A stretch of DNA of 64,000 nt from positions 619,501 to 683,500 of the forward strand of contig NZ_CP016464.1 of the NCBI RefSeq assembly GCF_001713455.1, read 5' to 3'. Source of the stretch: Bosea sp. RAC05. Its GTDB lineage: Bacteria; Pseudomonadota; Alphaproteobacteria; Rhizobiales; Beijerinckiaceae. Both the position numbers and the translations under genes were made by a program. A model generated the notes under the pieces. That model did not search any database and was not told the DNA's origin. It worked only from the letters and a program-made list of their open reading frames with translations. Below, piece after piece: positions 39,893 to 63,780 of the stretch; position 1 is the stretch's first letter, and the number at the start of each line of letters is the position of its first letter.

Positions 39893-40435
39893 TCAGGGCC
39901 GCTCCAGCTGGCCGGCGATGAAGGCGTCGAGGTTGCCGCCCTCGAACAGGAAGCCCCTCACCCCCGCGGCCGCGGCGGCCTGAATGTCGGTATCGCGATC
40001 GCCGACCAGGAACGACCGTTCCCGCTCCGTGGGGAAGTCCCGCATCGCCTTGAGCAGCATGCCCGGGCGCGGCTTGCGATCCTCGTGATCGGCCCGGTAG
40101 GCGGCGAGCGCCGCCTCCGGATGATGCGGCGAAAAATAGAAGGCGTCGATGCGGGCGCCGTTCTCGAGCATGATCCGGTTCATCTGCCCATGCAGCGAGC
40201 GCACATCGTCCTCGGTGTAGTAGCCGCGTCCGACCCCTGACTGGTTGGTGACCACCACGACCCGGTAGCCGAGCCGGTTCAGGCGGCGAACGGCCGCGAA
40301 GGCGCCCTCCACCCAGACGATCTGGTCGATCCGGAAGGCGTAGTCGACCTCCTCGTTGAGGACCCCGTCCCGATCGAAGAACGCCATCGGGGCCATGGCG
40401 TCCGCAGCCGGAGGCCTCGTCACTGTCACCGTCAT
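39893..40435 (-). CDS. gmhB: D,D-heptose 1,7-bisphosphate phosphatase, GmhB type (180 aa)
   Basis: This HAD-IIIA phosphatase removes the C7 phosphate of heptose 1,7-bisphosphate in NDP-heptose synthesis. Motif I is FFDRDGVLNEEVDYAF (about 19-34), with the VVVVTNQSGVGRGYY block (motif II, about 59-73) that defines the family. DRKPRPGMLL and LVGDRDTDIQAA supply the later motifs. I did not see the extra Zn-binding Cys cluster of E. coli GmhB (C-x-H...C-x-C): the loop reads SPHHPEAALAAYRADHEDRK, so this is the Zn-less form. It opens the polysaccharide locus, 20 kb from the isomerase and kinase. Confidence 0.88.
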   Translation of the reverse strand: MTVTVTRPPAADAMAPMAFFDRDGVLNEEVDYAFRIDQIVWVEGAFAAVRRLNRLGYRVVVVTNQSGVGRGYYTEDDVRSLHGQMNRIMLENGARIDAFYFSPHHPEAALAAYRADHEDRKPRPGMLLKAMRDFPTERERSFLVGDRDTDIQAAAAAGVRGFLFEGGNLDAFIAGQLERP

Positions 40436-40600
40436 CTGGCCCCACCTCACTGCGCCGCTGCCGCGCGGTCCCGTCCGCGACAAGCCGCGGATAACCGGCG
40501 GCCGCGGATTTGGCGAGTCGGCTGTGGAGAGCAGAGCCCGGCCGCTCCGGGTCAGGATCGTGCGATCGGCGCGATGGCGCGCAGGATCGATCGCGCGGGG

Positions 40601-41251
40601 CTAGGGCTGGACATCGTCCGTCGGGCGCTTGAGCGCCAGATCGTAGAGTCCTGCGGGATGGTAGCAGAAGAACGCCGCCGGCCATTTGTGGGTGCTGGCG
40701 AATTCGACGACCGCCCGGCACACGCCGTAGCGTCCGAGCCAGGGATCGATATGCGCGAAATCGTTGAAGACGAGATAGCCGCCGGGCTTGAGTTTCGGCG
40801 CGGCAGCCACGGCGTCCCGGAGGCACCCGTCATAGGAATGGTCGGCGTCGATATAGATCCAGTCGAAATACTGATCCGGAAACGTGGCGATGACGTCGTA
40901 GGTCAGCCCCTTGTGGCGGAAGATCGTCTCGCCTTCGAGGCCCAGCGTGATGAAATGAGAATCGTCGATGTCGATGAGATGGAGTTCCCGTGGCGAGTTG
41001 CGGAAGACGATTTCACGGCTGAAGTCGCCGCGGTAGACGCCCAGCTCGGCCACCCTGCCGTTGGGGGGAATCCGGTTGAGAATGTCCTGGCGCGAAGGAA
41101 GAAACTGGCAGTCCGCGAGTAATTCCGGCGGCAGCGAATGGATCGGCGCGACGGGCGTCAACGAGCGGCTGATCCTGTAGAGTGTCCGCACCCACTGTGG
41201 GGCGCCTATCCGAAGCTGCATTTCCAGCCGCTTCATCAAACCGGTCGCCAT
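40601..41251 (-). CDS. Class I SAM-dependent methyltransferase, Methyltransf_24 type (216 aa)
   Basis: The SAM site reads RVAELGVYRGDFSREIVF (about 66-83). The acidic motif II is in HLIDIDDSH, and DWIYIDADHSYDGCLRDA with PKLKPGGYLVFNDF supplies the later motifs and likely metal ligands. Family members methylate hydroxyls, often on sugars of surface polysaccharides. A basic N-terminus precedes the domain. The neighbours are gmhB and a GT2 gene on the same strand, so sugar O-methylation is a fair inference. Confidence 0.85.
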   Translation of the reverse strand: MATGLMKRLEMQLRIGAPQWVRTLYRISRSLTPVAPIHSLPPELLADCQFLPSRQDILNRIPPNGRVAELGVYRGDFSREIVFRNSPRELHLIDIDDSHFITLGLEGETIFRHKGLTYDVIATFPDQYFDWIYIDADHSYDGCLRDAVAAAPKLKPGGYLVFNDFAHIDPWLGRYGVCRAVVEFASTHKWPAAFFCYHPAGLYDLALKRPTDDVQP

Positions 41252-41664: not shown

Positions 41665-41677
41665 GCTCAAGGCTCCC

Positions 41678-45332: not shown

Positions 45333-45498
45333 AGCGGGACATGCGGGCGCCCGATCGCCGGTCGCGCACCGATGACGCTGCGTCGGAAGCTCCGGCCGAT
45401 AGCATGGCCGCCGGGACTTCAATGTTGACAAAAGAAGAACGGGCGTGTTTTCGCATCCTCCCACGCATGGCGCCCGATCCGACCAGGTTGAGACTGAA

Positions 45499-46389
45499 AT
45501 GACAGAGAGTTCGGCGTATCTGGTGGTGGGTGGCGACAGCTTCGTCGGCGGCAGCGTTGTCGAGGCGCTGCGGCGCCGCGGACACAGGGCGCTGGCGAGC
45601 ACGCGCCGCCGGGAAACAGTCGACGCCGACCGCGTTTTCCTCGATTTCGAGACGCCTGAAGCGTTCCGCAGCCCAGCGGATGTGAAATACGCCTATCTGA
45701 TCGCCGCAGCGACGAACTACGACCGCTGCGAGACCGACCCGATGGCGCGCGTCATCAATGTCGATCTCATCCCGCGGACGGTCGCGTCGCTGCTGGAGCA
45801 GGGGCTCCATGTCACGTTCATCTCGACCAACTCGGTCTTCGGGGGCGAGCGCCCCTGGCCGCATGAGGACGATCCCCACGCCCCGGGCATCGCCTATGCG
45901 CAGCAGAAATCGGATGGCGAGGCCGTCGTTCTGGCGGCTGCGGACCGGCTGGGTGCGCGCGACCGGCTCAACATCACGCGCCTGACCAAGATCATGAATG
46001 CGACCGTCTCCCCGGTTCCCGGCTGGGTCGCCGCCTGGAAGCGCGGCGAGGCGGTCGAGCCTTTCGAGGACCTCGTCTTCGCGCCGATCTCGGTGAATTT
46101 CGTCGGCGAGGCACTGGCGACGCTGGGTGAGAAGCGGCTGTCTGGCAATCTCCATCTCTCGGGCGCGGAGAATGTCAGCTATGTGGCGTTCGCCCATGCG
46201 CTGGCGGCCCGGCTCGGCGTGGACAAGGCGCTGATCAAGCCCACGACATCGCTCGCCAAGGGCATTCACATCGCCTTCAAGCCGCGTTTCAGCGGGCTGG
46301 GGATGACCAGGACCACGCAACTCAGCGGTGTCGAGCCGCAGCCGCTGGATCGCCTCATCGACGATCTGGTTGCGGATTTGCGCAGCTGA
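45499..46389 (+). CDS. NAD(P)-dependent sugar reductase, RmlD-like SDR (296 aa)
   Basis: An extended SDR with VVGGDSFVGGSVVEALRRRG (about 8-27) as nucleotide site. The catalytic region is FISTNSVFGGERPWP and YAQQKSDGEAVV (YxxxK at about 133-137). RmlD-like proteins reduce 4-keto NDP-deoxysugars; the substrate here would be a keto sugar from the locus. The start ATG is 166 bp past the 652-residue gene, and a methyltransferase follows 16 bp downstream, so these are one operon. Confidence 0.87.
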   Translation: MTESSAYLVVGGDSFVGGSVVEALRRRGHRALASTRRRETVDADRVFLDFETPEAFRSPADVKYAYLIAAATNYDRCETDPMARVINVDLIPRTVASLLEQGLHVTFISTNSVFGGERPWPHEDDPHAPGIAYAQQKSDGEAVVLAAADRLGARDRLNITRLTKIMNATVSPVPGWVAAWKRGEAVEPFEDLVFAPISVNFVGEALATLGEKRLSGNLHLSGAENVSYVAFAHALAARLGVDKALIKPTTSLAKGIHIAFKPRFSGLGMTRTTQLSGVEPQPLDRLIDDLVADLRS

Positions 46390-46405: not shown

Positions 46406-47668
46406 ATGAGCGACTTCATCCACCGCGGCTCGTGCCGCCTCTGCGACTCGAAGAACCTCGAGCGCGTCGTGGATCTCGACCCAATCCCGCTCTCGGAGAA
46501 CTACACCTCCGACTCGGCCTCGGCGAAGGCGCGCAAGCGCTATCCGGTCGATGTCTACATGTGCGCCGATTGCGGCCATGTGCAGCAACTCGACGTGATC
46601 AACTCCAAGGATCTCTGGGCCTCCTACACCTATTATTCGGGTGAGGCGAAAGGCATGCCGGAGCACTTCCAGCAGGTCGCAGACCGCATCCTCGCTAAGG
46701 CTGCGCCCGAGAAGGGCGCGCTGGTGATCGACATCGGCAGCAATGACGGTTCGCTGCTGAAGCCCTTCCAGAAGGTCGGCATGGCCGTGTTGGGCATCGA
46801 CCCTGCGGAGGAAGCCGCGCAGCGCGCCAACGATGCCGGCGTCGAGACCGTCTGCTCGCTGATGACACGCGAGTTGGCCGAGAAGATCCGGGCCGAGCGC
46901 GGACCGGCTCAGGTGATCTGCGCGTTCAACGTGTTCGCCCATGCCGACGATCTCGGCGAGATGGCTGATTGCGTTCGCATCATGCTGGCCCCCGACGGGC
47001 TGTTCTTTTTTGAGGCGCAGTATCTCCTCGACATCATCGACGGCGTGTTGATCGCGACGATCTTCCACGAGCATATGAGCCACCATTCGGTGACGCCGCT
47101 GACGCGCTTCCTCGATGCGCACGGGCTCGAGCTGATCGCGGTCCAGCGCGCCCGCATCCAGCACGGATCGCTCATCGGCACCGTCCAGCTCAAGGGCGCG
47201 GGGCGTCCGGTCGAGGCGTCGGTCGGAGAGGTGCTGGCCCTCGAAGCGCAGCGCAACCTGACGCAACTCGACACGCTGCGTGAGTTTGGCCGCACGATCG
47301 CGACCCTGCGCAGCAAGACGGCCGCCCTCATCCAGGGCTTCAAGGCGCAGGGCAAGACGATTGCGGGCTATGGTGCGGCGCGCAGCGGGCCGACCTTGAT
47401 CACCCAGCTCGGACTGTCCGGGGCGCTCGACTACATCGTCGACGACCATCCGCAGAAGGTCGGAAAATACGAGACCGGCGACGGCGTCTTCATCGTGCCG
47501 ACGGCCGAGCTTCTGGCCCGGCAGCCCGACTACACCGTTATTCTGGCCTGGGTCCATTCGCAGAAGATCATCGATACCAATCAGGAATACCTGAAGCGGG
47601 GTGGGCATTTCATCGTGCTCTGCCCGGAAACGCGCGTCGTCGGCAAGGACGGGGACGTCAAGATCTGA
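46406..47668 (+). CDS. NDP-sugar C-methyltransferase family protein (420 aa)
   Basis: Three-part methyltransferase of the TylC3/NovU type. An N-terminal zinc domain has CRLCD (about 10-14) and CADCGHVQ (about 53-60). The central SAM domain has LVIDIGSNDGSLLKPFQ (about 110-126) and FNVFAHADDLGEM. The C-terminal Methyltransf_14 domain has GKTIAGYGAARSGPTLITQL (about 326-345) and the closing IVDDHPQKVGKY. Such enzymes add a methyl group to carbon 3 of a 4-keto NDP-sugar, making branched-chain sugars. The conserved His/Glu pair in TIFHEHMSHHS fits the catalytic base. Confidence 0.92.
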   Translation: MSDFIHRGSCRLCDSKNLERVVDLDPIPLSENYTSDSASAKARKRYPVDVYMCADCGHVQQLDVINSKDLWASYTYYSGEAKGMPEHFQQVADRILAKAAPEKGALVIDIGSNDGSLLKPFQKVGMAVLGIDPAEEAAQRANDAGVETVCSLMTRELAEKIRAERGPAQVICAFNVFAHADDLGEMADCVRIMLAPDGLFFFEAQYLLDIIDGVLIATIFHEHMSHHSVTPLTRFLDAHGLELIAVQRARIQHGSLIGTVQLKGAGRPVEASVGEVLALEAQRNLTQLDTLREFGRTIATLRSKTAALIQGFKAQGKTIAGYGAARSGPTLITQLGLSGALDYIVDDHPQKVGKYETGDGVFIVPTAELLARQPDYTVILAWVHSQKIIDTNQEYLKRGGHFIVLCPETRVVGKDGDVKI

Positions 47669-47712: not shown

Positions 47713-48393
47713 ATGGATACGCAGAAGACCAAGGAACCGCAGTATCAGGTCATCGTCGAAGCCGCGACCAAGCGCGGCGTCGAGACCTTTGGCCTGCGCA
47801 GCAGCGAGAGCTGGCACGAGGACCCCAAGCACCTCGTCTTCCGGCTGGCGCGCTATAAGTTCGTCGCCAAGATGTTCTCGGGCCGAAAGCACGTGCTCGA
47901 GGTCGGTTGCGGCGATGCCTTCGGCACCCGCATCGTCCAGGCCGAGGTCGGAAAGCTGACCGGCATCGATTTCGACCCCGTCTTCATCGACGACGTCAAC
48001 GCGCGGATGGTGGATCGCTGGAAGTTCGACGCCAAGGTCCATGACATGCTCGACGGGCCGGTTCCCGGCGAGTTCGACGGCGTCTACGCGCTGGACGTGC
48101 TGGAGCACATCGACCCGGCTCAGGAGAAGCTGTTCCTGAAGAACTCCTTTGCGCCGCTCGGCCGCGATGGCGCCGGCATCATCGGCCTGCCCTCGCTCGA
48201 GAGCCAGCCCTATGCCTCTCCGCAGTCCAAGGCCGGTCACGTCAACTGCAAGTCGGCGCCTGAGCTGAAGAAGCTGATGCAGGAGTATTTCCACAACGTC
48301 TTCGTCTTCAGCATGAACGACGAGGTCGTCCATACAGGCTTCCACAAGATGGCGAACTATGTCTTCGCCATCGGCGCGGGCCGGCGCGACTGA
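47713..48393 (+). CDS. Class I SAM-dependent methyltransferase (226 aa)
   Basis: The SAM site is KHVLEVGCGDAFGTRIVQAE (about 59-78), with LTGIDFDPVFIDDVN as motif II and DGVYALDVLEHIDPAQEKLF (about 120-139) as motif III/IV. The C-terminus has a short GFHKMANYVFAIGAG strand. The acceptor is unknown, probably a glycan hydroxyl. It is 45 bp after the C-methyltransferase on the same strand. Confidence 0.88.
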   Translation: MDTQKTKEPQYQVIVEAATKRGVETFGLRSSESWHEDPKHLVFRLARYKFVAKMFSGRKHVLEVGCGDAFGTRIVQAEVGKLTGIDFDPVFIDDVNARMVDRWKFDAKVHDMLDGPVPGEFDGVYALDVLEHIDPAQEKLFLKNSFAPLGRDGAGIIGLPSLESQPYASPQSKAGHVNCKSAPELKKLMQEYFHNVFVFSMNDEVVHTGFHKMANYVFAIGAGRRD

Positions 48394-48485: not shown

Positions 48486-49040
48486 ATGAACCAATCCAGG
48501 GACCAAGAGATGGACGAGTTGCCGGCGCGTCTGCGGACGATATCTCCCGAGGTCCTGTATTCTGACGGCGGCTTCCTCGCCGTCGATGGGTCGATTGTCG
48601 AGATCCTGAAGCAACGTGCCGGGGTGGCGCCGCGTCGCCGCTGCAGGCTCTGCTTCCATGCTGACAGCAGCGACGCCCAGCAGGAGATGCTGATCGTCAT
48701 GCACCGCGATTCCTACGTGCAGCCGCATTGCCATATCGGCAAGGTCGAGACGCTCTCGATCATCGAAGGGACAGCGGATGCCCTGCTGTTTTCAGCCGAT
48801 GGCGCGCTGACCGGGACGGTGCCGATGTCGCCGGCCGCGCAAGGCGGCGCGTTCTTCTATCGAATGCCGGAAGGGCAGTATCACAGCCTGCGCTTCCGTT
48901 CCGAATGGCTCGTCTTCCTCGAAACCACGATCGGCCCCTTCGACCGCTCGACGACGCGGACGGGAAGCTGGTCCCCGCCGGAGACCGAACCGGCCGCTGG
49001 CCACGCCTTCCTCGCCGCCCTGCGCGGCTCTCTGGCCTGA
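48486..49040 (+). CDS. WbuC family cupin (184 aa)
   Basis: A single cupin with QEMLIVMHRDSYVQPHCHIG (about 59-78), carrying likely metal His residues, then SIIEGTADALLF and the second motif FFYRMPEGQYHSLRF. WbuC genes occur in E. coli and other O-antigen clusters; the biochemical role is unknown. The start at 48486 follows a short gap after the methyltransferase. It is followed by another C-methyltransferase-like gene, so it belongs to the same operon. Confidence 0.85.
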   Translation: MNQSRDQEMDELPARLRTISPEVLYSDGGFLAVDGSIVEILKQRAGVAPRRRCRLCFHADSSDAQQEMLIVMHRDSYVQPHCHIGKVETLSIIEGTADALLFSADGALTGTVPMSPAAQGGAFFYRMPEGQYHSLRFRSEWLVFLETTIGPFDRSTTRTGSWSPPETEPAAGHAFLAALRGSLA

Positions 49041-49120
49041 GGCAAGGCCGTCTTGCTTCCCTCGCGGCTTGTGTGGGTGTAAGCCCCGTCCTGCTCACTT
49101 TGTAACGTCTGGAATCTGTG

Positions 49121-52336: not shown

Positions 52337-52349
52337 GGGAGAGCGTCCT

Positions 52350-53195: not shown

Positions 53196-53356
53196 GGCGA
53201 GCTTATAGGGCCATGGACAGGGGAAGTCATGCTGCAATGTCCATGGGGGAGGCTGCAATGCAGCCCCCACCTCGTGCCTTCGCCGCATTGCGGCCAACCG
53301 GGCGGCTCATGTTGACGTAGCGGCCGCGCGCGGGCGGCCGCTTCGTCGGCTCTTGA

Positions 53357-54047: not shown

Positions 54048-55055
54048 CTAGCGGAGGCCGATTTCAGCGAGTTTCGCGACGGCCTTGTCGAGTTGGGCGG
54101 CGCAACGCACATCGCGCGCGCCGGGATTGGCGAAGTCGCGGCGGGCCGCATCCATCGGCAGGAAATCGTTCAGGATGATGCAGGCCCACTTGATTCGGTA
54201 CGCGTCGAGCAGCAGATCGCAGCGCAGCCGGAAGGCGGCGTCGAGTCCGAGGCCCTCAGCCAGGCTGTCGATGAAGGCGCCGCGGTGCCGGAGCGGGACA
54301 GGAATCTCCGGGCAGCAGAAGAAGTCGCAGACGAGCTTGGCCGGGTCGTCGCGCCCGGCATATTCGAAATCGATGAAGCTGACGCGGCCGGAGCCGTCGA
54401 CAAGCGCGTTGTGGAAGCCGAAGTCCGAGGGGGAGATGCACTGGACTTCCGTGGGCAGGGTGGCCGCGTCGGAAGCCGCCGTGATCGTCTCGCGCACCTT
54501 CGCCCAGGCCGGCACGAGTCCGGCTCGCACCAGCGTCTCGGCGCGCTCGCGATGCGGTGCGTCGGGATCGAGCGTGGCGAGCCTTGCGACGCGACGGTCG
54601 ACGGTCGCGACATGGTCTGCCAGCGAAAAGCAGGCCTCTGAGCCCGGCTGCAGCCTGTCGGGCTCGCGTGGCGCGCCATTCGCCGCGCAGATGAAGCGGG
54701 CGGCCTGGGCGATGTGGTCAGAGGTGATGTCCCCGGCATCGAGTTTCTCGCCGGGGACGAGTGCGTAGAGCGCGGTGTGGCTCGCACGCTCCTGCGCCAG
54801 CGGCTCCGGCACCGCGCGGACGCCACGGTCCCAGACATAGGCCAGGAAGCTCCATTCGGCGAAGAGTCGGTCGCGCGGGTCGCGCTGGTCGGCATGGTAG
54901 CTCTTCAGGATCAGGGCGGGGCCGCCGGCCGTCGCGACGGCGAAGACGCGATTGTTCTTCCCTCCAGCCAGCTGCCGCAGCGAAAGCGGGGCAGGACGCT
55001 CGGCCACCGCGCAGAGCCGTCCTGCAGCGGCGAGGAGTTCATCGGTGTCGAGCAT
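54048..55055 (-). CDS. APH/choline-kinase-like phosphotransferase (335 aa)
   Basis: A protein-kinase-like small-molecule kinase. The nucleotide loop is LAGGKNNRVFAV (about 29-40), the Lys in ALILKSYHADQ and the catalytic loop SPSDFGFHNALV with SFIDFEYAGRDDPAKLVCDF as the metal-binding DxD-like motif (about 210-245). The canonical His of the HxDxxxxN loop is Ser here. The acceptor is likely a sugar or an alcohol of the locus. It sits 4 bp from the HAD gene upstream, so kinase and phosphatase are co-transcribed. Confidence 0.82.
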   Translation of the reverse strand: MLDTDELLAAAGRLCAVAERPAPLSLRQLAGGKNNRVFAVATAGGPALILKSYHADQRDPRDRLFAEWSFLAYVWDRGVRAVPEPLAQERASHTALYALVPGEKLDAGDITSDHIAQAARFICAANGAPREPDRLQPGSEACFSLADHVATVDRRVARLATLDPDAPHRERAETLVRAGLVPAWAKVRETITAASDAATLPTEVQCISPSDFGFHNALVDGSGRVSFIDFEYAGRDDPAKLVCDFFCCPEIPVPLRHRGAFIDSLAEGLGLDAAFRLRCDLLLDAYRIKWACIILNDFLPMDAARRDFANPGARDVRCAAQLDKAVAKLAEIGLR

Positions 55056-55059
55056 GGCC

Positions 55060-55662
55060 TCAGGCGTTCAGCAGCGCGGTCTGGATCTGCGTCCAGCTCG
55101 CATGTCGCTCGAAGCGCCCGAGAGCCGCATGGTGCCCGTCGGGATCGAACAGGATGCCGCGCATGCCCGCGGGGAACCCGTTCATCGACAGGATCTCCGG
55201 AAGGTCGTCGACGAAGACATCGACACCCAGGGCAGCGGCACGCGCCACCTTCTCTTCCTTCGTCAGTTCGAAGAAGGCATTCCCGCTCCGGATCCCGTCC
55301 TCGCCGATGAAACCGCGCGCCTCCAGAAAGCCGCGGGCGGCCTGATGCATGTCATAGGCCGGCCCCATCATCGGGGTCCTGGTCTTGTGGCTGACGATGA
55401 AGAGATCATGGCCCGCCGCGTTGGCGGCTCTGAGGAACCCCTCGAAGCCGGCATAGGGCGAAACCAGGTCCATCCGGGCACCGTAGACATAGCCTTGCAG
55501 CTCGGTGAAGTCGTCCTTGCGGCCCGAACCGTTCAGATAGTCCCGAACGGCGTTCTTCGACGCGCCGAGATCGGCGGGGATCAGCCCCCGTTCGAGCGCC
55601 GCCTTGTGGAACACGCCGTCATAGCAGGCGATGGTGTTGTCGAAGTCGATGCCGATCCGCAT
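55060..55662 (-). CDS. HAD superfamily phosphatase-like protein (200 aa)
   Basis: Motif I is GIDFDNTIACYD (about 4-15), with the phospho-Asp and acid Asp. A helical cap includes LGASKNAVRDYLNGS. HDLFIVSHKTRTPMM supplies motif II (about 91-105) and VDVFVDDLPEIL motif IV. This form is common in polysaccharide loci of alphaproteobacteria; the substrate is unknown. It lies between the kinase gene and the dehydrogenase gene on the same strand. Confidence 0.85.
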   Translation of the reverse strand: MRIGIDFDNTIACYDGVFHKAALERGLIPADLGASKNAVRDYLNGSGRKDDFTELQGYVYGARMDLVSPYAGFEGFLRAANAAGHDLFIVSHKTRTPMMGPAYDMHQAARGFLEARGFIGEDGIRSGNAFFELTKEEKVARAAALGVDVFVDDLPEILSMNGFPAGMRGILFDPDGHHAALGRFERHASWTQIQTALLNA

Positions 55663-55689
55663 GGCGGGGGGCTCCCGGTGGGACAGCCC

Positions 55690-56727
55690 CTAGAGGCTCA
55701 TGTCGATGAGCGGCCGCCCGACCTTGCCATCGGCGAGATCGTCGAGCGCCTGGCTGGCCTGAGCCAGCGAATAGGGCGCCGAGAGCAGGCCCTTGACCGG
55801 GAAGCGACCGCCGCCGAGCAGGCGGCCATAGCGGCCGTAATCGCGATCGGGAACGCTGTCGCCACCCCAGGTGCCCATCAGGCTCTTGCCCTGGTTGAAC
55901 ACGCCCGGATTGAGCTTGAGTTCGGCGCCGTATTTCGCGTTGCCGATGACGACGGCGCGGCCGCCCTGCTGGCGCGTCGCGTTGATCGCCTGGTCCATCA
56001 CCGCCGGGATGCCCGAGGCCTCGACGGCGACATCGACGCCCTGCGGCACGATCTTCTTGATCTCGGCAATCACGTCGACGCCGGTCGGATCGATGACATG
56101 GGTCGCGCCATAGGTCTTGGCGAGCGCGCGGCGGGTCGGGCTGGGATCGATGCCGATCACCGGCGAGGCCCCGCCCAGGGCAGCGGCGAGACAGGCGTTG
56201 AGCCCGATGCCGCCGGTGCCGAAGATCGCGATCGAGTCGCCGGGCTGCAGCTTGAGCACATTGTAGACGGCGCCCATGCCGGTCGGCGCGGCGCAGCCGA
56301 GCAGCACGGCGACATCCATCGGCAGGTTCTCGGGAACCAGCGTCAGGCGGTTCTCGCTGACGACGGCATGGCGCTGGAAGGTGGTGACGCCGCCGGCGTT
56401 CACCTTCCTGTCACCCCACATGTAGACCGCGCCGCCCGCCTCGATGCCCGAGCCCTTGATCCAGGACAGCACGACCTTGTCGCCGGCCTTGACCTTGGTG
56501 ACAGCGGAGCCAGCCTCCAGAACCGTTCCGGTGCCCTCATGGCCGAGGCAATGGGGAACCCACTTGTCCTCGCCCTTGAGGCCGCGCGCCTCCATCACCT
56601 GCGTGCCGCAGGCGCCGGAATAAGCGATTTCGACCAGGACCTGGCCGGGCTTCAGCGCCGGGATCTCGATCTCGACGAGTTCGAGCGGCTGGCCGGTCTG
56701 GACGAGGAGGGCGGCGAGGGTTTTCAT
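55690..56727 (-). CDS. Zinc-type alcohol dehydrogenase-like protein without structural zinc loop (345 aa)
   Basis: Medium-chain dehydrogenase fold. The catalytic zinc ligands are Cys in YSGACGTQVM and His in LGHEGTGTV, with a third candidate in LLGCAAPTGMGAVYN. The NAD site is SIAIFGTGGIGLNACLAAAL (about 174-193). The four-Cys structural loop is replaced by GSGIEAGGAVYMWGDRKVNA. The substrate is probably a sugar alcohol or keto sugar of the locus. It is next to the transketolase pair, 10 bp away. Confidence 0.87.
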   Translation of the reverse strand: MKTLAALLVQTGQPLELVEIEIPALKPGQVLVEIAYSGACGTQVMEARGLKGEDKWVPHCLGHEGTGTVLEAGSAVTKVKAGDKVVLSWIKGSGIEAGGAVYMWGDRKVNAGGVTTFQRHAVVSENRLTLVPENLPMDVAVLLGCAAPTGMGAVYNVLKLQPGDSIAIFGTGGIGLNACLAAALGGASPVIGIDPSPTRRALAKTYGATHVIDPTGVDVIAEIKKIVPQGVDVAVEASGIPAVMDQAINATRQQGGRAVVIGNAKYGAELKLNPGVFNQGKSLMGTWGGDSVPDRDYGRYGRLLGGGRFPVKGLLSAPYSLAQASQALDDLADGKVGRPLIDMSL

Positions 56728-56737
56728 GGGATGTCCG

Positions 56738-57661
56738 TCAGGCGAGCTTGTGCAGGATGCGGTCGGCGATCTGGTGGCCGGTCAGTTCGAGCTGTTCGCG
56801 GGCGAACTCCTGCTCGCCGGACTTCTTGAAGAAGGCGTCGGGCGTGCCGAAGCGCAGGAACTTCTTCGGTGCGATGCCGGCATCGACGATCCACTCGGCG
56901 ACCGCCGAGCCGAAGCCGCCGATCAGCGAGTGTTCCTCGATGGTCGCGACGAGCTTGTAGCGCGAGAACGCATCCTGGAGCCGCTTCTCGTCGAGCGGCT
57001 TGACGGTGTGGAAGCTCACCACCTCGGCCGAGACACCCTTCGCCTTCAGGGCATGCGCGGCCTCGACGACCTCAGGCAGCATGTTGCCGGTCGACAGCAG
57101 GCAGACATCGCTGCCCTGCTCGATGGTGATCGATTCGCCGATCTTGAAGTTCTCGAGCCGGCCCTTGTGGACCAGGGGCTCGCCCTTCTTGCCCATGCGG
57201 ATATAGGCCGGCTTGTTCTGCTGCATGACGGCACGCAGCGCCGCGCGGACCTCCCAGGCGTCGCCGGGCGCGATCACGATCATGTTCGGAATGGCACGCA
57301 GGAAGGCGATGTCCTCGCAGGCGTGGTGCGTCGGCCCCAGCCCGGCATAGGCGAGGCCCGCTCCGACCGAAACGATCGTCACCGGGACATCGTGATAGGC
57401 GGCATCGGTGCGGATCTGCTCCAGGCAGCGCGTCGTGCAGAAGGGGGTGATCGTGTAGGTCACCGGCCGCATGCCCGACATGGCAAGCCCGGCGGCCACG
57501 CCGGTCATGTTCTGCTCGGCGACGCCGCAGTTGATGAAGCGCTCCGGATGCGCCGCCCGGAACTTGTCGAACAGCTTGTTGCCGATGTCGCCCGACAGCA
57601 TGACGAGACGGGGGTCGTCATTGCCGAGGCTGGTCAGCTCGTCCGCGAATGCGTTTCTCAT
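56738..57661 (-). CDS. Split transketolase, C-terminal subunit (307 aa)
   Basis: The pyrimidine-binding part has GVAEQNMTGVAAGLAMSGMR (about 46-65), with the catalytic Glu, and GAGLAYAGLGPTHHACEDIA (about 100-119). The C-terminal transketolase domain follows with GSDVCLLSTGNMLPEVVEAA. With the upstream N-subunit it should form a full TPP-dependent transketolase. The start overlaps the N-subunit stop as ATGA. Split transketolases often serve secondary sugar pathways. Confidence 0.93.
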   Translation of the reverse strand: MRNAFADELTSLGNDDPRLVMLSGDIGNKLFDKFRAAHPERFINCGVAEQNMTGVAAGLAMSGMRPVTYTITPFCTTRCLEQIRTDAAYHDVPVTIVSVGAGLAYAGLGPTHHACEDIAFLRAIPNMIVIAPGDAWEVRAALRAVMQQNKPAYIRMGKKGEPLVHKGRLENFKIGESITIEQGSDVCLLSTGNMLPEVVEAAHALKAKGVSAEVVSFHTVKPLDEKRLQDAFSRYKLVATIEEHSLIGGFGSAVAEWIVDAGIAPKKFLRFGTPDAFFKKSGEQEFAREQLELTGHQIADRILHKLA

Positions 57662-58494
57662 AGCAGGCCGAGCTCCTTATGCGCCTTGACGACCTCTTCG
57701 GCGGTCGGGGCACGGTAGTGCCAGTTGTTGTCGTCCTCCATGAAGGAGACGCCCTTGCCCTTGACCGTGTGGGCGATCAGGGCGACGGGCTTGCCCGAAC
57801 CGTTCGGCAGCGTCTGCATCCGGCGCGCGAGTTCGCCGACGTCATGGCCGTCGATCTCATGGGCGTCCCAGCCGAAGGCGCGCCATTTCTCCGCGAGCGG
57901 GGCCAGCATCAGCGTCTCGTTAGAGCGCGCGGTCGCCTGCCACTTGTTGTAGTCGACGATGACGCAGAGGTTCTCCAGCTTCTGGGCGGACGCGAACATC
58001 GCGCCTTCCCAGACCGAGCCCTCGTTGTTCTCGCCGTCGGAGAGCAGGGCGTAGACCTTGTAGTTGCGCTTCTGGATGCGACCGGCCACCGCCATGCCGA
58101 TGCCGATCGGCAGCCCGTGGCCGAGCGAGCCGGTCGCCGCCTCGACGCCGGGCAGCAGATTCGCCGGCGGGTGCTCGGCGAGGCGGCCATTGTCCTGATT
58201 GTAGGTCTTCAGCTCTTCGACCGGGAAATAGCCGCGGTTGGCGAGCGTCGCATAGAGCGCCATCGCCGCATGACCCTTCGAGAGGATGAAGCGGTCGCGA
58301 TCTGGATCGGTGGGGTTCGCCGGATCGATGTTCAGCACGTGCCAGTAGGCGGCCGTCAGGACATCGAGACAGGACAGGGACGAGCCCAGATGGGCCGAGC
58401 TGGAGTCATGGCACATGGTGACCACGGTTCCGCGCAGTTGCGCCGCCCTGGCCTTCAGGGCGGCGACGTCGGGCTCTCGATATGCGGCGTTCAT
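57658..58494 (-). CDS. Split transketolase, N-terminal subunit (278 aa)
   Basis: The TPP-binding part has DSSSAHLGSSLSCLDVLTAA (about 30-49), FILSKGHAAMALYATLANRG, and the GDG-type motif LLSDGENNEGSVWEGAMFAS (about 151-170, with Ser for the first Gly), followed by IVDYNKWQATARS. It transfers two-carbon units between sugar phosphates when joined to the C-subunit. Its presence beside a sedoheptulose-using isomerase suggests it supplies that substrate (inference). Confidence 0.93.
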   Translation of the reverse strand: MNAAYREPDVAALKARAAQLRGTVVTMCHDSSSAHLGSSLSCLDVLTAAYWHVLNIDPANPTDPDRDRFILSKGHAAMALYATLANRGYFPVEELKTYNQDNGRLAEHPPANLLPGVEAATGSLGHGLPIGIGMAVAGRIQKRNYKVYALLSDGENNEGSVWEGAMFASAQKLENLCVIVDYNKWQATARSNETLMLAPLAEKWRAFGWDAHEIDGHDVGELARRMQTLPNGSGKPVALIAHTVKGKGVSFMEDDNNWHYRAPTAEEVVKAHKELGLL

Positions 58495-58501
58495 CAGTGT
58501 C

Positions 58502-59500
58502 TTACGCCTTATGGATGTATTTGGAGGGAAGAGACGGCAGGTCGGCCTCGAAGCGGCGCATCCAGTTGATCGTGTCGGCAATGCCGTCCGCGAGCGAGAT
58601 CTTGTCCTGCCAGCCGAGTTCGGTCCGCAGCTTGATCGAATCCAGCGTGTACGCGGTGTCCTTGCCAGGGCGCTCGGGGCCGATCTCGACACAATCGTCG
58701 AAGTTCTTGCCGAGCGTCGACAGGATGGTCTCGACGCAGGTGCGGATCGAGACCAGCTCGTAGCCCGAGATGTGGTAGGTTTCGCCGGTCGCACCCTTGA
58801 GCGCGATCTTCAGCGTGGCGTCCGAGACGTCGCGCATATGGATGAAAACGCGGATCGACTTGCCGCCGCCGTCCAGCCTGAGCTTCTGGCCGGTCATCGC
58901 CGCATAGATCGTGCGCGGGATGATGCGGTAGAGCTGCTGGCCGGGGCCATAGACATTGGCGGCGCGGGTGAACAGAACGGGGAACTGGTACTGCTGGAAG
59001 TAGGTCCGCAGGCTCATGTCGCCGGCGGCGCGTGACACGGCATAGGGCGTCGACGGGTTGAAGGCGTGGTCTTCCTTCACCCAGCCTTCGGTCGAGCCAT
59101 AGGCCTCCGGCGTGGTGACGTGGACATAGCGCTCCAGGCCGTCGTAGTTGCGCAGCAGATCGTGCAGCCGCACCGTCGAGACGACGTTCGTCATCATCCA
59201 GTGGTCGGGGTGGATCCAGCTCTCGCCGACCATCGACTGGGCGGCGAAATTGACGACATGCGTCGGCCGCTCCGCCTTCAGCAACGCCTCGAGCGCCGGA
59301 AGGTCCTTGTTGATGTCGATGCGCTTGAAGCGGACGGTGCCCGGGCGCTTCTTCCACTTGTAGGGCAGGAAGGCGCGGTGCGGCTCCTTCGAGCGGCTGG
59401 TCGCGATGACGTCATGGCCCTGCTCGGCCAGATAGTCACAGAAGAAGGCGCCCGAAAAGGAGTTCGAGCCGAGAACGAGAAACTTGACGCCTGACGCCAT
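58502..59500 (-). CDS. NAD-dependent sugar dehydratase/epimerase, RmlB/GMD-like SDR (332 aa)
   Basis: Extended SDR with nucleotide site FLVLGSNSFSGAFFCDYL (about 6-23) and the family region VTTPEAYGSTEGWVKED (about 128-144). YGPGQQLYRIIPRTIYA and GKSIRVFIHMRDVSD fit sugar dehydratases. The catalytic motif that should read YxxxK is YAVSR (about residues 152-156), with Arg for Lys. A 4,6-dehydratase or epimerase role is likely. It sits between the isomerase and the transketolase genes, 7 bp from the latter. Confidence 0.88.
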   Translation of the reverse strand: MASGVKFLVLGSNSFSGAFFCDYLAEQGHDVIATSRSKEPHRAFLPYKWKKRPGTVRFKRIDINKDLPALEALLKAERPTHVVNFAAQSMVGESWIHPDHWMMTNVVSTVRLHDLLRNYDGLERYVHVTTPEAYGSTEGWVKEDHAFNPSTPYAVSRAAGDMSLRTYFQQYQFPVLFTRAANVYGPGQQLYRIIPRTIYAAMTGQKLRLDGGGKSIRVFIHMRDVSDATLKIALKGATGETYHISGYELVSIRTCVETILSTLGKNFDDCVEIGPERPGKDTAYTLDSIKLRTELGWQDKISLADGIADTINWMRRFEADLPSLPSKYIHKA

Positions 59501-59514
59501 GTCGAGAGGATTTC

Positions 59515-60108
59515 CTACGCTGCCTTGACGTGATGCCGGTGCTTGTACAGCCACTGCACGATCATGTGGCCAAGAATCGTCTGCGTATCCTCGGCGATCT
59601 GCATGTCGTCGACGGGGAAGTGGATCGCCACATCCGCCATCTCCTTGGCCTTGCCGCCGCCGAAGCCGACGACGGCATAGGATTTGACCCCACGGCGCTT
59701 CGCTTCTTCGAGGGCTTTCAGGATGTTGGGGGAGTTTCCGCTGCCCGAGAAGGCCAGCAGGATGTCGCCCGGATTGGCCATCACCGCGAGCTGATAGGTG
59801 AAGACATGGTCGTAGCCTTCGTCATTGGCGAGACAGGCCAGGACCGCGGGGTTCTCGGTCAGGGCGTGAGCCCGGATGCCCGAGCCCAGCGTCTTCGACA
59901 GCGGATACATGAAGTCGTTGGCGAGATGATTCGCGTTGCCGGCGCTGCCGCCATTGCCGATCAGGAAAAGCTGACGCTTCTCCTGCCAGCAGCCGAACAG
60001 ATCCTCCGCCAGCGCCTTCACGGGCGCCCAGTCGAAAGCCTGCAGGGTCTGCGCGAGGCGCGCCGAATAGTCCTTGAAGTGATCCGTCGGATCGCTCAGT
60101 TCCGCCAT
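59515..60108 (-). CDS. gmhA: GmhA-type phosphoheptose isomerase, SIS domain (197 aa)
   Basis: SIS-fold isomerase. The sugar-phosphate loop is LIGNGGSAGNANHLANDFMY (about 48-67) and the second is FSGSGNSPNILKALEEAKRR (about 118-137). ACLANDEGYDHVF is diagnostic for GmhA. It should convert sedoheptulose 7-phosphate to heptose 7-phosphate. By eye, E. coli's active Glu in HxxxE is Asp here (HLAND) and the helix before GHMIVQ carries Glu where Gln is usual. It is next to a sugar SDR on each side. Confidence 0.85.
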   Translation of the reverse strand: MAELSDPTDHFKDYSARLAQTLQAFDWAPVKALAEDLFGCWQEKRQLFLIGNGGSAGNANHLANDFMYPLSKTLGSGIRAHALTENPAVLACLANDEGYDHVFTYQLAVMANPGDILLAFSGSGNSPNILKALEEAKRRGVKSYAVVGFGGGKAKEMADVAIHFPVDDMQIAEDTQTILGHMIVQWLYKHRHHVKAA

Positions 60109-60156
60109 GTCGGCCTCCCGGGCCAGATCGTGATCGACGCGTCGCAAGGACGCGTC

Positions 60157-61113
60157 TTATTCGGCGGCCGCTTGTGCAGGCAGAACCGTCTTCATCATCC
60201 ACTTGAGATTGTGGAAGCGATCTTCTTCCTTGAGCGCGCCCTGGCGATAGAGGCCGACGATCTCCTTGATCGCGTCGTCGACGGTCTTCTTGGGCCTGAA
60301 GCCGGTCGCGAGCAGCCGGTCGGAGTTGACGCGGTAGCTGCGCGGATCGTTGGACGGCTTCACCTCGATCTCGGCGCCGACATGCTCGGCCACCATCTTG
60401 GCGATGTCGAGGATCGAGATGTTCTCGAAGCCCGCATTGTACACGCCGGTGTGCTGCGGGTTCTCCATCAGGAAGATGTAGAGATCGGTGATGTCGTCCA
60501 TATGGATGTTGGGGCGCGTCTGGTCGCCGCCGAGCACCGTGATCTTGCCCTTGGTCAGCGCCTGCATCGTCAGCAGGTTGACGGCGACGTCCAGGCGCAT
60601 CCGCGGGGAGAAGCCGCACACCGTCGCCGGGCGGACGATCTGCACCGTCATGTCGTCCGCATAGGACAACAGGATGCGCTCACCGCACATCTTGGTCTTG
60701 TTGTACTCGGAGATCGGGAACAGCTCGAGATCCTCGGTCACCTGCGGCTCGTCGGAGACGCCGTAGACCGAGCCGGACGAGGCATAGATGAAGTGCTTGA
60801 TGCCCTTGCGCTTGGCCCTGTCGGCGAGCTGCATGGTGGCGAGGCAGCTGATTTCCCAGGTCAGCTTCGGGTCGAGATCCGAGCAGGGATCGTTGGCGAC
60901 GCTCGACAGGTGGATGATGACGTCGATGCCGTCGAGATTAACTTCTTCGCTGTTGCGAATGTCGCCCTTCACCACCTCGAGATTGGGGTGGGGACGCAGG
61001 AAATTGCCGAACCACTGGATGTCGAAGGCGCGGACGGTGTGCCCCTTTTCGAGCAGCTTCGGAACCAGCACTGTGCCCTTGTAGCCGCAAGCGCCGGTGA
61101 CGAAAATGTTCAT
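60157..61113 (-). CDS. NAD-dependent epimerase/dehydratase, extended SDR (318 aa)
   Basis: The nucleotide site is NIFVTGACGYKGTVLVPKLL (about 2-21). The catalytic part reads YASSGSVYGVSDEPQVTEDL (about 112-131), with YNKTK (YxxxK) shortly after. Sugar-nucleotide SDRs of this type epimerise or oxidise NDP-sugars. It leads the minus-strand block, 49 bp before the isomerase gene, and is divergent from the kinase fusion. The C-terminus ends PAQAAAE. Confidence 0.9.
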   Translation of the reverse strand: MNIFVTGACGYKGTVLVPKLLEKGHTVRAFDIQWFGNFLRPHPNLEVVKGDIRNSEEVNLDGIDVIIHLSSVANDPCSDLDPKLTWEISCLATMQLADRAKRKGIKHFIYASSGSVYGVSDEPQVTEDLELFPISEYNKTKMCGERILLSYADDMTVQIVRPATVCGFSPRMRLDVAVNLLTMQALTKGKITVLGGDQTRPNIHMDDITDLYIFLMENPQHTGVYNAGFENISILDIAKMVAEHVGAEIEVKPSNDPRSYRVNSDRLLATGFRPKKTVDDAIKEIVGLYRQGALKEEDRFHNLKWMMKTVLPAQAAAE

Positions 61114-61448
61114 GGACCGTTTCCCCGCGAAGGGCCCGGCAGACGTCGTCTCCGGGCTGTTGGCGACTGTGGAGGGCGGCGACCCGAAGGCTCCCGCCGG
61201 GGCGCGCAGCCTCATAGCAGCATCAAAATGGCATGTCGATAGCATCGCCAGCCGCTGGCCACAGGGTCATCCCGCAGCGTCAACTGCCCGACTTGGGGCG
61301 GATTGGCAGGCTTTTCCGCATGAGGACGCCGTCAGACGACATTCTCCAGCCTGCGCCGGGCCAAGTGATTGCCGCCTATCGGTGATTGGTCTAAGGAAGC
61401 CGGCCTCGGCGCGATGTATTCGCTTGCGACTCAACGGACCTGATCTGC
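61114..61448. other. Divergent intergenic region (335 bp)
   Basis: This gap separates the SDR-led minus block from the kinase/nucleotidylyltransferase gene and should carry both promoters. I see no reliable hexamers, hairpin or repeat. A short frame across 61097-61492 is a chance reading. Confidence 0.5.
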
Positions 61449-62987
61449 ATGAACAAGATGACCGATCTCACGGACCTCGAGGAAGCGGCTGATGCCACCC
61501 GGGAAGCGCTGACCAGCGTCTCCGCCATCCGCACGCTCGCTGGCGACAGCAAGCGCATCGCGTTCGTGTCCGGCAACTTCAATGCGGTCCATCCCGGTCA
61601 CCTGCGGCTGCTGCGCTTCGCGGCCGAAAACGCCGACATTCTCGTCGTCGGCATCAATTCCGACCGGACGCCGGGCGTCACTGTCCCGCAGGCCCTGCGC
61701 AAGGAAGGCATCGAGGCGATTTCCTTCGTCACCTATGCGGTCGCTCTGACCGGCGCCCCCGAGGAATTCGTCGCGGAACTGCAGCCCCATGTCGTGGTCA
61801 AGGGCAAGGAGTTCGCGGAGCGCGAGAACGCCGAGAAGCCGGTCGTCGAAGGCTATGGCGGCAAGCTCATCTTCTCGTCGGGCGAAGTTCGCTTCTCATC
61901 GATCAGCCTGCTGCAGCGCGATTATGCCGAACCGAATTTCCACACCATCAAGCTGCCGGCCGATTATCCGTTTCGCCATGGCTTCGACCATCAGGACCTC
62001 AGGGGCTGTCTCGACCGGTTCACCGGCCTGCGGGTCCTGGTCATCGGTGACCTGATCGTCGACAAATACATCAACTGCGATCCACTCGGGATGTCGCAGG
62101 AAGACCCGACCATCGTCGTCACACCGATCGAGCACAAGACCTTCGTCGGCGGTGCCGGCATCGTCGCGGCCCATGCGCAGGGGCTCGGCGCCGATGTGCG
62201 CTTCTTCACGGTGGTCGGCGACGACGAGGCGGCCCGGTACGCCGAGGAAGCGCTCGGTCGCTACAACGTCAAGGTCGAGTTCTTCCAGGACCGTTCCCGT
62301 CCGACCACGGTCAAGGAGCGCTATCGCGCCAATGGCAAGACGCTTCTGCGCGTCAACCACCTGCGCCAGCATGCGATCGAGGCAGAGCTTCAGGCCCGCA
62401 TCCTCGACCGCGTCAAGGCCGTCGTGGCCGATATCGATCTGATCCTGTTCTCCGACTTCAATTACGGCATGCTGCCGCAGCCGCTCGTCGAGGCAATTTC
62501 GGCGCTGGCGGCGGGCCGCAAGGTGATGATGGGCGCCGATAGCCAGTCGTCTTCGCAACTCGCCGACATCTCGCGCTTCAAGGGCATGGACATCATCACG
62601 CCGACCGAACGCGAGGCGCGTCTGGCGCTGCGCGATTTCGAGTCGGGCCTCGTCATCGTGGCCGAGCGGCTGCGGCGCCTCGCGGGCGCGGGCAGCGTCA
62701 TCGTCACGCTGGGGTCCGAGGGTTTGCTGATCCATGGCAGCAAGGACGGCATCGAGCGTTCGGACCGGTTGCCCGCCTTCAACACGGCGCCCAAGGACGC
62801 CGCCGGCGCGGGCGATTCGCTGTTCACCACGCTTGCTCTCGCCCGCTGTGCCGGCGTCGATATCTGGCGCGGCACCTATCTCGGCTCGGTGGCTGCGGCC
62901 TGCCAGGTCTCACGCGTCGGCAATACGCCGCTGACACGCCAGGACCTGATTCAGGAGTTCGAGCAGGCGACCGTAACCCGGATCTGA
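61449..62987 (+). CDS. HldE-like fusion with reversed domains: nucleotidylyltransferase then PfkB kinase (512 aa)
   Basis: Residues about 30-165 are a cytidylyltransferase-like nucleotidylyltransferase: FVSGNFNAVHPGHLRLLRFA (about 39-58) with the HPGH motif and LVVGINSDRTPGV. Residues about 190-500 are a PfkB/ribokinase-fold kinase with VIGDLIVDKYINCD, TFVGGAGIVAAHAQGLGADV and the catalytic DAAGAGDSLF near residue 450. In E. coli HldE the kinase is first and the nucleotidylyltransferase second, so the order is swapped. It should phosphorylate heptose 7-phosphate at C1 and attach a nucleotide later. It ends 34 bp before a second nucleotidyltransferase. Confidence 0.9.
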   Translation: MNKMTDLTDLEEAADATREALTSVSAIRTLAGDSKRIAFVSGNFNAVHPGHLRLLRFAAENADILVVGINSDRTPGVTVPQALRKEGIEAISFVTYAVALTGAPEEFVAELQPHVVVKGKEFAERENAEKPVVEGYGGKLIFSSGEVRFSSISLLQRDYAEPNFHTIKLPADYPFRHGFDHQDLRGCLDRFTGLRVLVIGDLIVDKYINCDPLGMSQEDPTIVVTPIEHKTFVGGAGIVAAHAQGLGADVRFFTVVGDDEAARYAEEALGRYNVKVEFFQDRSRPTTVKERYRANGKTLLRVNHLRQHAIEAELQARILDRVKAVVADIDLILFSDFNYGMLPQPLVEAISALAAGRKVMMGADSQSSSQLADISRFKGMDIITPTEREARLALRDFESGLVIVAERLRRLAGAGSVIVTLGSEGLLIHGSKDGIERSDRLPAFNTAPKDAAGAGDSLFTTLALARCAGVDIWRGTYLGSVAAACQVSRVGNTPLTRQDLIQEFEQATVTRI

Positions 62988-63021
62988 GCGGTAGCGGTAT
63001 CACGGCGGGCCAGGACCTATC

Positions 63022-63780
63022 ATGCGCGCATTGCTGCTGGCGGCGGGGATCGGAAGCCGTCTCCGCCCGATCACCGACACCATTCCCAAATGCCTGGTGC
63101 CCATCCACGGGCGGGCCCTGCTTGACTACTGGTTCGACCTGCTGACGCCGGCCGGCGTCGGCCCGGTGCTGATCAACACCCATTACCTGCCCGACGCCGT
63201 GCGCGGCCATGTCGCGCAGGCGCCCTATCGCGAGCAGGTCACCCTGGTGCACGAGGACGAGTTGCTCGGCACCGGCGGCACCATCCATGCCAATGCCGGC
63301 TTCTTCGGACGGGAGCCTTTTCTCGTCGCTCATGCCGACAACCTGACGCGCTTCGACATGCAGGGGTTGGAGGCGGTCCACAGGGCGCGTCCGCCCGGGT
63401 TCGCGATCACCATGCTCGCCTTCGAGACGGACGATCCACGGTCCTGCGGCATCCTCGAATTCGAGGAGCCCGCGGCGCCGGGCCGGGCCGGCATCGTCAA
63501 GGCTTTCCACGAGAAGGTCGAGAATCCGCCGGGCAACCTCGCCAACGCCGCGGTCTATATCCTCGAGCCCGAGGTGCTGGACTTCCTCGCAAGCCTCGGC
63601 AAGCCGGTCATCGACCTGTCGACCGAGGTGATTCCGCATTTTGTCGGGCGCATCCAGGCGGTCTCGCTGGCGACCTACCACCGCGACATCGGCAATGTCG
63701 AAAGCCTGCGCCGGGCACATGAGGAATTCGTGCCGTCACACGTCAAATCGAGTTCGGCTGCCGCTGATTCTGCCGGCTAA
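63022..63780 (+). CDS. Sugar-1-phosphate nucleotidyltransferase (252 aa)
   Basis: NTP-transferase fold, with the nucleotide loop LLLAAGIGSRLRPITDTIPK (about 4-23), containing the catalytic Arg and Lys, then VLINTHYLPDAVRGH and LGTGGTIHANAGF (about 80-92). LVAHADNLTRFD carries the metal Asp. It resembles mannose-1-phosphate guanylyltransferase and HddC, and the base used cannot be read from sequence. It overlaps the stop of the convergent partial gene by 3 bp. It may give an NDP-heptose. Confidence 0.88.
   Translation: MRALLLAAGIGSRLRPITDTIPKCLVPIHGRALLDYWFDLLTPAGVGPVLINTHYLPDAVRGHVAQAPYREQVTLVHEDELLGTGGTIHANAGFFGREPFLVAHADNLTRFDMQGLEAVHRARPPGFAITMLAFETDDPRSCGILEFEEPAAPGRAGIVKAFHEKVENPPGNLANAAVYILEPEVLDFLASLGKPVIDLSTEVIPHFVGRIQAVSLATYHRDIGNVESLRRAHEEFVPSHVKSSSAAADSAG

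Follow-up and report, generated by a model that had tools for sequence, protein, structure and literature searches.

What kind of sugar is built at a locus where a split transketolase stands among enzymes of heptose activation, sugar dehydrogenases and methyltransferases? The question is raised by a 64,000-nucleotide stretch of the genome of the soil bacterium Bosea sp. RAC05, called the window here at its full length. The genes of the window were defined from open reading frames (ORFs), Pfam matches and the curated cut-offs of NCBIfam, and the whole genome (5.62 Mb, two contigs) was searched. The locus divides into a conserved cassette of eleven genes at 53357–63780 and other genes (Table 1). 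Nine cassette genes are tightly packed on the minus strand from 61245 down to 53357 (SDR_epi, SIS, SDR46, TKN, TKC, ADHz, HAD, APH and MT11), and the NTkin–NTP pair diverges from them (61449–63780). TKN and TKC are the two halves of the transketolase. With a probability of roughly 0.6, the eleven genes are a bradyrhizose-type biosynthetic cassette, and the surface polysaccharide that this Bosea exports by Wzm/Wzt contains bradyrhizose or a close analogue made by them.

Bradyrhizose is a ten-carbon bicyclic sugar described as "inositol-fused" (PMC9912281). According to the available text of Busset et al. 2016 (PMC4743980), the genes for its synthesis were called unknown at that time apart from the cluster then found, and gdh insertion mutants of strain ORS285, in a cluster described as eleven genes, were without bradyrhizose by gas chromatography–mass spectrometry and without O-antigen by sodium dodecyl sulfate–polyacrylamide gel electrophoresis. 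The O-antigen of the nodule bacterium Bradyrhizobium sp. BTAi1 is bradyrhizose, described in the source as a single-sugar polymer. The BTAi1 locus (L011) contains exactly the same eleven genes as the Bosea cassette, contiguous and on one strand, in the order NTkin, NTP, SDR_epi, SIS, SDR46, TKN, TKC, ADHz, HAD, APH, MT11. The proteins of the two strains are identical at 57% (NTkin), 64% (NTP), 78% (SDR_epi), 62% (SIS), 81% (SDR46), 80% (TKN), 79% (TKC), 86% (ADHz), 72% (HAD), 58% (APH) and 82% (MT11) of positions. The gdh primers, for which a product of 300–400 bp is stated (Table 1 of PMC4743980), can be placed on SDR46 of BTAi1 at 21/23 and 23/24 bases with starts 357 bp apart, where they encode DAFLPYK and DMSLRTYF. 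On the window SDR46, they match at 19/23 and 21/24 bases with an identical 357-bp spacing. The match was tried on nine sequences, and in one of them (L019) the reverse primer was without a match in place. From the gdh match, the number of genes and the BTAi1 locus, the eleven window genes appear to be the orthologues of the bradyrhizose cluster. Since BTAi1 has the same eleven genes and the gdh primers fall in SDR46, the probable product of this Bosea is bradyrhizose or a close analogue. The aldehyde C1 of bradyrhizose closes on O4 to give a furanose and on O5 or O9 to give pyranoses (PMC9912281). Given these closures, C4 should be bonded to C3, C5, C9 and a hydroxyl, which would make it a tertiary carbinol.

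Are these eleven genes a unit elsewhere? Genome contigs were scanned with TKN, and the best 80 of 587 confirmed relatives were kept; they are the 80 loci referred to below. The closest TKN in named genomes among these was that of Bosea vaviloviae SD260 (97% identical). Each six-frame ORF of the 80 loci was assigned to a single family by comparison with 23 proteins of the window, so a frame with fused HAD and APH counts for only one of them. Flanks of about 10 kb on either side of TKN were available in 48/80 loci. Near TKN in these 48, TKC was found in 47, SDR46, SDR_epi and APH in 45 each, MT11 in 44, HAD in 42, ADHz in 41, NTkin in 36, SIS in 32 and NTP in 20. For the genes outside the cassette, the counts were 17 each for CMT1 and SDR_RmlD, 14 for MT25, 10 each for WbuC and CMT2, 8 for GmhB, 6 for Wzm and 4 for Wzt. 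The complete set of eleven was present in 19/80 loci. Seven other loci of the Bosea genome with a pyrimidine domain binding thiamine diphosphate (ThDP) served as a control: within about 10 kb on each side, none had HAD, APH, MT11, SIS, NTkin, NTP, a short-chain dehydrogenase/reductase (SDR) or ADHz, and they showed only transketolase-like genes and one weak ABC match. The grouping, recurring in many genomes with a control of 0/7, exceeds chance. For 8/8 partners (SIS and NTP were outside this test), partner distances follow TKN distances over 26 loci (r 0.63–0.86), and 0/500 permutations reached the observed value for each partner. An unbiased search for additional cassette genes gave a commonest unmatched family in 9/80 loci, with the next families in at most 6; the former, its sequence read by eye, appears to be a DegT-type aminotransferase.

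By record title, the cassette is widespread. The titles include Alpha-, Beta- and Gammaproteobacteria, relatives of Desulfovibrio, Cyanobacteria, Verrucomicrobia, Planctomycetes, Lentisphaerae, Acidobacteria, Armatimonadetes, Omnitrophota, Elusimicrobia, Nitrospirales, Nitrospina, Poribacteria, Neomarinimicrobiota, Dehalococcoidia and one archaeon. By title, 67/80 loci are metagenome-assembled, and some titles look unreliable, such as those of the cassette-bearing bins L031, L034, L049, L068 and L076, titled Bordetella parapertussis or Akkermansia muciniphila. HAD was found in 33/398 sampled Pseudomonadota genomes, a count that includes the genome of the window and one short weak match (G148). 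Within the genus, TKN occurs at E ≤ 1e-80 in 3/67 genomes, that of the window counted, and the locus is therefore accessory. The G+C content of the window is 0.63–0.67 over 40–64 kb and 0.65–0.70 upstream of 40 kb.

A first-pass annotation had described the locus as a sugar-activation and sugar-modification pathway beside an exporter, a description that holds. All the genes that it named are present where it had placed them; HAD, APH and MT11 were overlooked as members of the conserved unit. Its expectation that the transketolase pair and the NTkin fusion would also be neighbours in other genomes agrees with the counts, as the fusion lies near TKN in 54/80 loci (36/48 with full flanks).

What, then, does the transketolase do? 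In all 76 TKC relatives, the positions that we take to be Ser386, His469, Asp477 and Arg528 in yeast numbering are replaced: the first is Arg or Lys, the stretch around the second is without His, the third is Leu or Asn and the fourth is Lys. By the same assumed numbering, the equivalents of Arg359, Glu418 and His481 are kept in 76/76, those of His30, His69 and His263 in 80/80 TKN, and that of His103 in 67/80 (Gln in 13). The ThDP Asp is kept in 80/80 TKN. Two controls, the solved split transketolase of Carboxydothermus and the full-length transketolase of Bosea itself, keep the canonical Ser, His, Asp and Arg. The Bosea genome also has a second split transketolase (region of G000:C2:1053903-1054376; loci L008 and L128), which is 35–40% identical and has no cassette neighbours. 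It has Tyr, Ser and Tyr at the positions of His30, His103 and Asp477 (L008) and, being unusual there, does not serve as a canonical control.

Because four pocket residues are replaced in 76/76 relatives while the catalytic residues are kept, the pocket favours the addition of a two-carbon branch to a keto sugar over the supply of sedoheptulose phosphate. The tertiary C4 carbinol of bradyrhizose fits a branch made by a transketolase. Such branching had been put forward as the second of two proposals in the first-pass annotation, and the replaced pocket makes it the better supported one. A transketolase that simply supplies sedoheptulose phosphate was rejected on the replaced pocket residues and the presence of a full-length transketolase in the genome. 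Both facts also oppose a dedicated heptose supply, in which the transketolase would make sedoheptulose 7-phosphate, SIS, NTkin and GmhB would convert it into an ordinary nucleoside diphosphate (NDP)-heptose, and the SDRs would finish the sugar. SIS and NTkin are indeed distant relatives of GmhA and HldE, each being its own only match in the genome at E ≤ 1e-3, but a plain heptose misfits the bradyrhizose phenotype of the orthologous cluster, and this explanation is improbable. The transketolase might also act first and form an unusual ketose phosphate, such as an octulose 8-phosphate if a hexose phosphate were its substrate, before isomerisation by SIS and activation by NTkin. Transketolase, isomerase and kinase would thus work in a linear order, and two active-site positions of SIS depart from GmhA in 45/45 sequences, as an altered substrate could require. 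Against this, the tertiary C4 of bradyrhizose would be left to another enzyme, and the residues of the phosphate pocket are changed, though the Arg359 equivalent and the new Lys or Arg could still bind phosphate. An early action of the transketolase is considered rather unlikely.

The preferred reading is that branching takes place on an activated heptose. Gene content and order, the orthology to the mutant-tested cluster, the pocket replacement and the breadth of occurrence are the observed part, and from it we infer every chemical step, which donor is used, how the ring closes and where the methyl group goes. The pathway would start from a ketose phosphate, most probably sedoheptulose 7-phosphate. 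SIS, NTkin through its kinase half, a nucleotidyltransferase and a phosphatase would convert it to an NDP-heptose. An SDR would oxidise C4, and the resulting ketone would accept a hydroxyacetyl unit (two carbons) from the split transketolase, giving a tertiary carbinol with a ketol arm. ADHz would oxidise C7, at the other end of the chain, where an aldol reaction with the carbon next to the new ketone would form a six-membered ring bearing oxygen on each of its carbons. MT11 would add one carbon, and the count would be 7 + 2 + 1 = 10. By class, only the transketolase (two carbons) and MT11 (at most one) form carbon–carbon bonds, so if each acts once, a start of at least seven carbons is needed. 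The classes to which SIS, NTkin and a phosphatase belong are those of heptose activation. SDR46, with Pro at its catalytic Asp position in 64/67 relatives, may not eliminate water; in that case, and with C7 oxidised by ADHz, the aldol ring would carry oxygen on every carbon, as "inositol-fused" requires. The broader idea is a remodelled split transketolase that performs ketone carboligation on a nucleotide-linked keto-heptose and whose arm is closed to an inositol-like carbocycle, in many phyla and with an aminated variant in Bradyrhizobium. It is proposed tentatively, at somewhat less than even odds.

The other enzymes of the cassette are related to known families. SIS scores 102 bits with TIGR00441 (curated cut-off 209). 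In GmhA numbering, Glu65 is replaced by Asp and Gln172 by Glu in 45/45 sequences, with His61 kept in 45/45 and His180 in 44/45. In NTkin, rfaE_dom_II covers residues 31–157 and rfaE_dom_I residues 189–503, the domain order being reversed relative to HldE; both halves are below the cut-off, with 190 of 345 bits and 59.5 of 181.5 bits against the curated HldE scores. The permuted fusion is kept at 24–30% identity, and among 56 matching ORFs only that of L050 is a single half away from a locus end. SDR_epi keeps the Ser, Tyr and Lys of the SDR site in 69/69 relatives. SDR46 scores 200 of 365 bits with TIGR01181. Its Asp position is Pro in 64/67 relatives, whereas Glu is kept in 66/67 and Tyr in 67/67, and the Lys position of YxxxK is Arg in 43, Lys in 22 and His in 2. 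Relatives of HAD (63 sequences), APH (66), ADHz (62) and MT11 (64) retain the catalytic motifs with few exceptions.

HAD and APH are fused in one frame in seven loci (L034, L038, L041, L049, L051, L054 and L074), which suggests that both act in one pathway. The HAD model (38 sequences) has a mean pLDDT of 97.0, and its fold search returned HAD proteins, the first being a deoxyribonucleotidase-like protein with a TM-score of 0.57 by query length. A plain GmhB was considered for this protein and rejected on the fold search. The APH model (34 sequences; mean pLDDT 94.8) matches the folds of choline, homoserine and aminoglycoside kinases, and neither model fixes a substrate. A sequence search of the PDB gave one chance-level match for HAD and none for APH; for MT11, it gave a mixture of N-, O- and other methyltransferases.

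The cassette could also serve two separate sugars, one made by SIS, NTkin and SDR_epi and the other by APH, NTP, HAD and the transketolase. Two kinases and two nucleotidyltransferases are in line with this, as is the occurrence of the NTkin–NTP pair in either orientation (e.g., L011 and L022). The O-antigen of BTAi1 is nevertheless described as a single-sugar polymer, all eleven genes lie together there, and TKN, TKC, HAD, APH, MT11, SIS and NTkin stay together in all ten fetched loci of the variant cassette described below, so that two products would be surprising.

The variant is found in the genus of genome G335 (195 genomes), taken as Bradyrhizobium by kinship and by its 71–74% matches. 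HAD occurs at E ≤ 1e-20 in 61 of these genomes, in 9 at 71–74% identity and in 52 at 39–46%; four loci with the closer HAD and ten with the more distant one (L109–L118) were fetched. All eleven genes are present in 4/4 of the former. The variant loci contain, in 10/10, SIS, NTkin, SDR_epi, HAD, APH, TKN, TKC, MT11, WbuC and a CMT1 relative (36–37%), and in these ten no ORF had SDR46, ADHz or NTP as its best match. L117 has two DegT-type aminotransferases between TKC and MT11 (13221–15438). In the variant TKC of L110 and L117, the His, Asp and Arg positions are changed as in the cassette TKC. The gene content suggests that the variant makes a related aminated sugar.

Several points weigh against the proposed pathway and its assignment to bradyrhizose. 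The argument from the pocket takes for granted that Ser386, His469 and Arg528 bind the sugar phosphate and that Asp477 binds a neighbouring hydroxyl, and the DXS-like proteins of the same genome are likewise without the His. SIS and both halves of NTkin fall below the curated heptose cut-offs, so a start from C7 is not established; SIS is present in only 45/80 loci and NTP in only 28/80. By its fold search, the cassette HAD does not resemble GmhB, MT11 may be an O-methyltransferase instead, and two kinases with two nucleotidyltransferases exceed the needs of one linear activation. SDR46 may not be the maker of the keto acceptor, because the variant, in which neither SDR46 nor ADHz is matched, keeps the transketolase. 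The distance correlation partly mirrors shared taxonomy. The available open-access text gave no position for the tenth carbon of bradyrhizose. In addition, the gdh mutants also lost a methylated core sugar, and polar effects of the mutation are possible according to the authors (PMC4743980, available text); the other ten genes are therefore tied to bradyrhizose by position only.

How do the remaining genes of the locus relate to the cassette? A minority of loci contain GmhB, WbuC, the TylC3-type genes or Wzm/Wzt together with it. Near the cassette, CMT1 was found in 20/80 loci, CMT2 in 14/80 and the GmhB-like gene in 9/80, and CMT1 and SDR_RmlD both exceed 60% identity in 6/80 (L012, L013, L023, L028, L029 and L039). 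Since TKN or HAD was the query for every locus, the counts of the TylC3-type group cover cassette neighbourhoods only. CMT1 has zinc-binding, S-adenosylmethionine (SAM) and C-terminal domains. CMT2 has the zinc-binding and C-terminal domains with a partial Methyltransf_23 match, and one pattern scan found no SAM glycine motif in it; in CMT2 and its relatives, the methyltransferase fold is perhaps kept for another use. Positions 43374–45332 of the window encode a 652-residue protein without a Pfam or NCBIfam match, relatives of which (42–49%) stand beside SDR_RmlD and CMT1 in L012 and L023.

The leading proposal of the first-pass annotation was a single pathway through all genes, with sedoheptulose 7-phosphate from the transketolase leading to an NDP-heptose that the TylC3-type enzymes C-methylate before its reduction and export. 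It is weakened by the pocket replacement in 76/76 TKC and by the lack of the TylC3-type group in the BTAi1 eleven. CMT1 and CMT2 do accompany many cassettes, at the frequencies given above, and a CMT1 relative stands beside the variant cassette in 10/10 fetched loci. The loci with CMT1 or CMT2 are nonetheless a minority of the 80, even fewer have CMT1 and SDR_RmlD in closely related form, and CMT2 is without the SAM motif by pattern scan. TylC3-type enzymes were rejected as necessary parts of the pathway for their absence from the BTAi1 eleven, though they occur near many cassettes, and one pathway through all genes is very improbable.

Table 1. Genes of the conserved cassette and its surroundings in the window.
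Gene	Description	Positions	Strand	Remark
MT11	Class I SAM methyltransferase; final gene of the nine on the minus strand	53357..54019	-	Start chosen by eye
APH	APH/choline-kinase-fold phosphotransferase	54048..55055	-	Fold search
HAD	HAD-superfamily phosphatase	55060..55662	-	No Pfam match; HAD motifs kept
ADHz	Zinc-type alcohol dehydrogenase	55690..56727	-	Catalytic motifs kept, few exceptions
TKC	C-terminal half of split transketolase	56738..57661	-	4-base overlap with TKN
TKN	N-terminal (ThDP-binding) half of split transketolase	57658..58494	-	
SDR46	dTDP-glucose 4,6-dehydratase-like SDR	58502..59554	-	Orthologue of ORS285 gdh by primer match
SIS	GmhA-like isomerase	59515..60147	-	TIGR00441 match, active-site comparison
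SDR_epi	NAD-dependent epimerase/dehydratase family	60157..61245	-	
NTkin	Fusion of nucleotidyltransferase (N-terminal) and PfkB heptose-kinase-like (C-terminal) domains	61449..62987	+	Order reversed relative to HldE
NTP	RmlA/HddC-type nucleotidyltransferase	63022..63780	+	
Wzt	ABC transporter ATPase, export; outside cassette	51233..52387	-	
Wzm	ABC-2 type permease, export; outside cassette	52350..53297	-	
SDR_RmlD	RmlD-like reductase; neighbouring group	45445..46389	+	
CMT1	TylC3-type C-methyltransferase with SAM motif; neighbouring group	46406..47668	+	
MT25	SAM methyltransferase; neighbouring group	47713..48393	+	
WbuC	WbuC cupin; neighbouring group	48486..49040	+	TIGR04366, 125 bits (cut-off 42)
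CMT2	TylC3-type paralogue without SAM glycine motif (pattern scan); neighbouring group	49118..50320	+	
GmhB	GmhB-like HAD phosphatase; outside conserved cassette	39893..40483	-	PRK08942, 148 bits (cut-off 178)

The cluster itself was already known; the pathway assignment, the pocket evidence and the breadth of occurrence appear to be new. The open-access literature, as far as its available text goes, yielded no biosynthetic pathway for bradyrhizose and no demonstrated case of a ketone-accepting transketolase in a surface-glycan pathway (for the latter, including PMC12247030). The proposal gives every gene of the cluster a place and makes one sharp prediction, namely a two-carbon addition to a keto sugar by the transketolase. 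Should this hold, the cassette would contain a ketone-accepting transketolase of a surface-glycan pathway and be a source of an enzyme that is wanted by chemists. Branched or bicyclic sugars would then be commoner than reported structures show.

Among known systems, the closest is the gdh cluster of photosynthetic Bradyrhizobium (PMC4743980), which is also described as eleven genes, whose BTAi1 orthologues are 57–86% identical to the Bosea proteins and whose gdh primers map to SDR46. In Bosea, however, NTkin–NTP lies on the opposite strand, and the TylC3-type group and Wzm/Wzt adjoin the cassette. The ADP- and GDP-heptose pathways (GmhA, HldE/HddA, GmhB, HddC) share with the cassette the classes of isomerase, 1-kinase, phosphatase and nucleotidyltransferase, whereas the cassette proteins score below the cut-offs and have a permuted fusion, an altered SIS site and a HAD of another kind. 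The two-gene transketolase of Carboxydothermus (PDB 6yak/6yaj) is the closest solved relative of both halves and retains the four canonical residues. The split transketolases of miharamycin and amipurimycin biosynthesis are likewise proposed to add a hydroxyacetyl unit to a keto sugar. They are likened here by description; the 13 candidates of the review are all from Streptomycetes, while the cassette enzyme occurs, by title, in many phyla (PMC12247030, available text). According to the same text, YerE makes a tertiary alcohol on a 4-keto sugar for yersiniose A. YerE and ErwE thus resemble the activity proposed here, as ThDP enzymes that branch a CDP-4-keto sugar to a tertiary alcohol in lipopolysaccharide, but they are of the decarboxylase type, and the cassette enzyme is a split transketolase.

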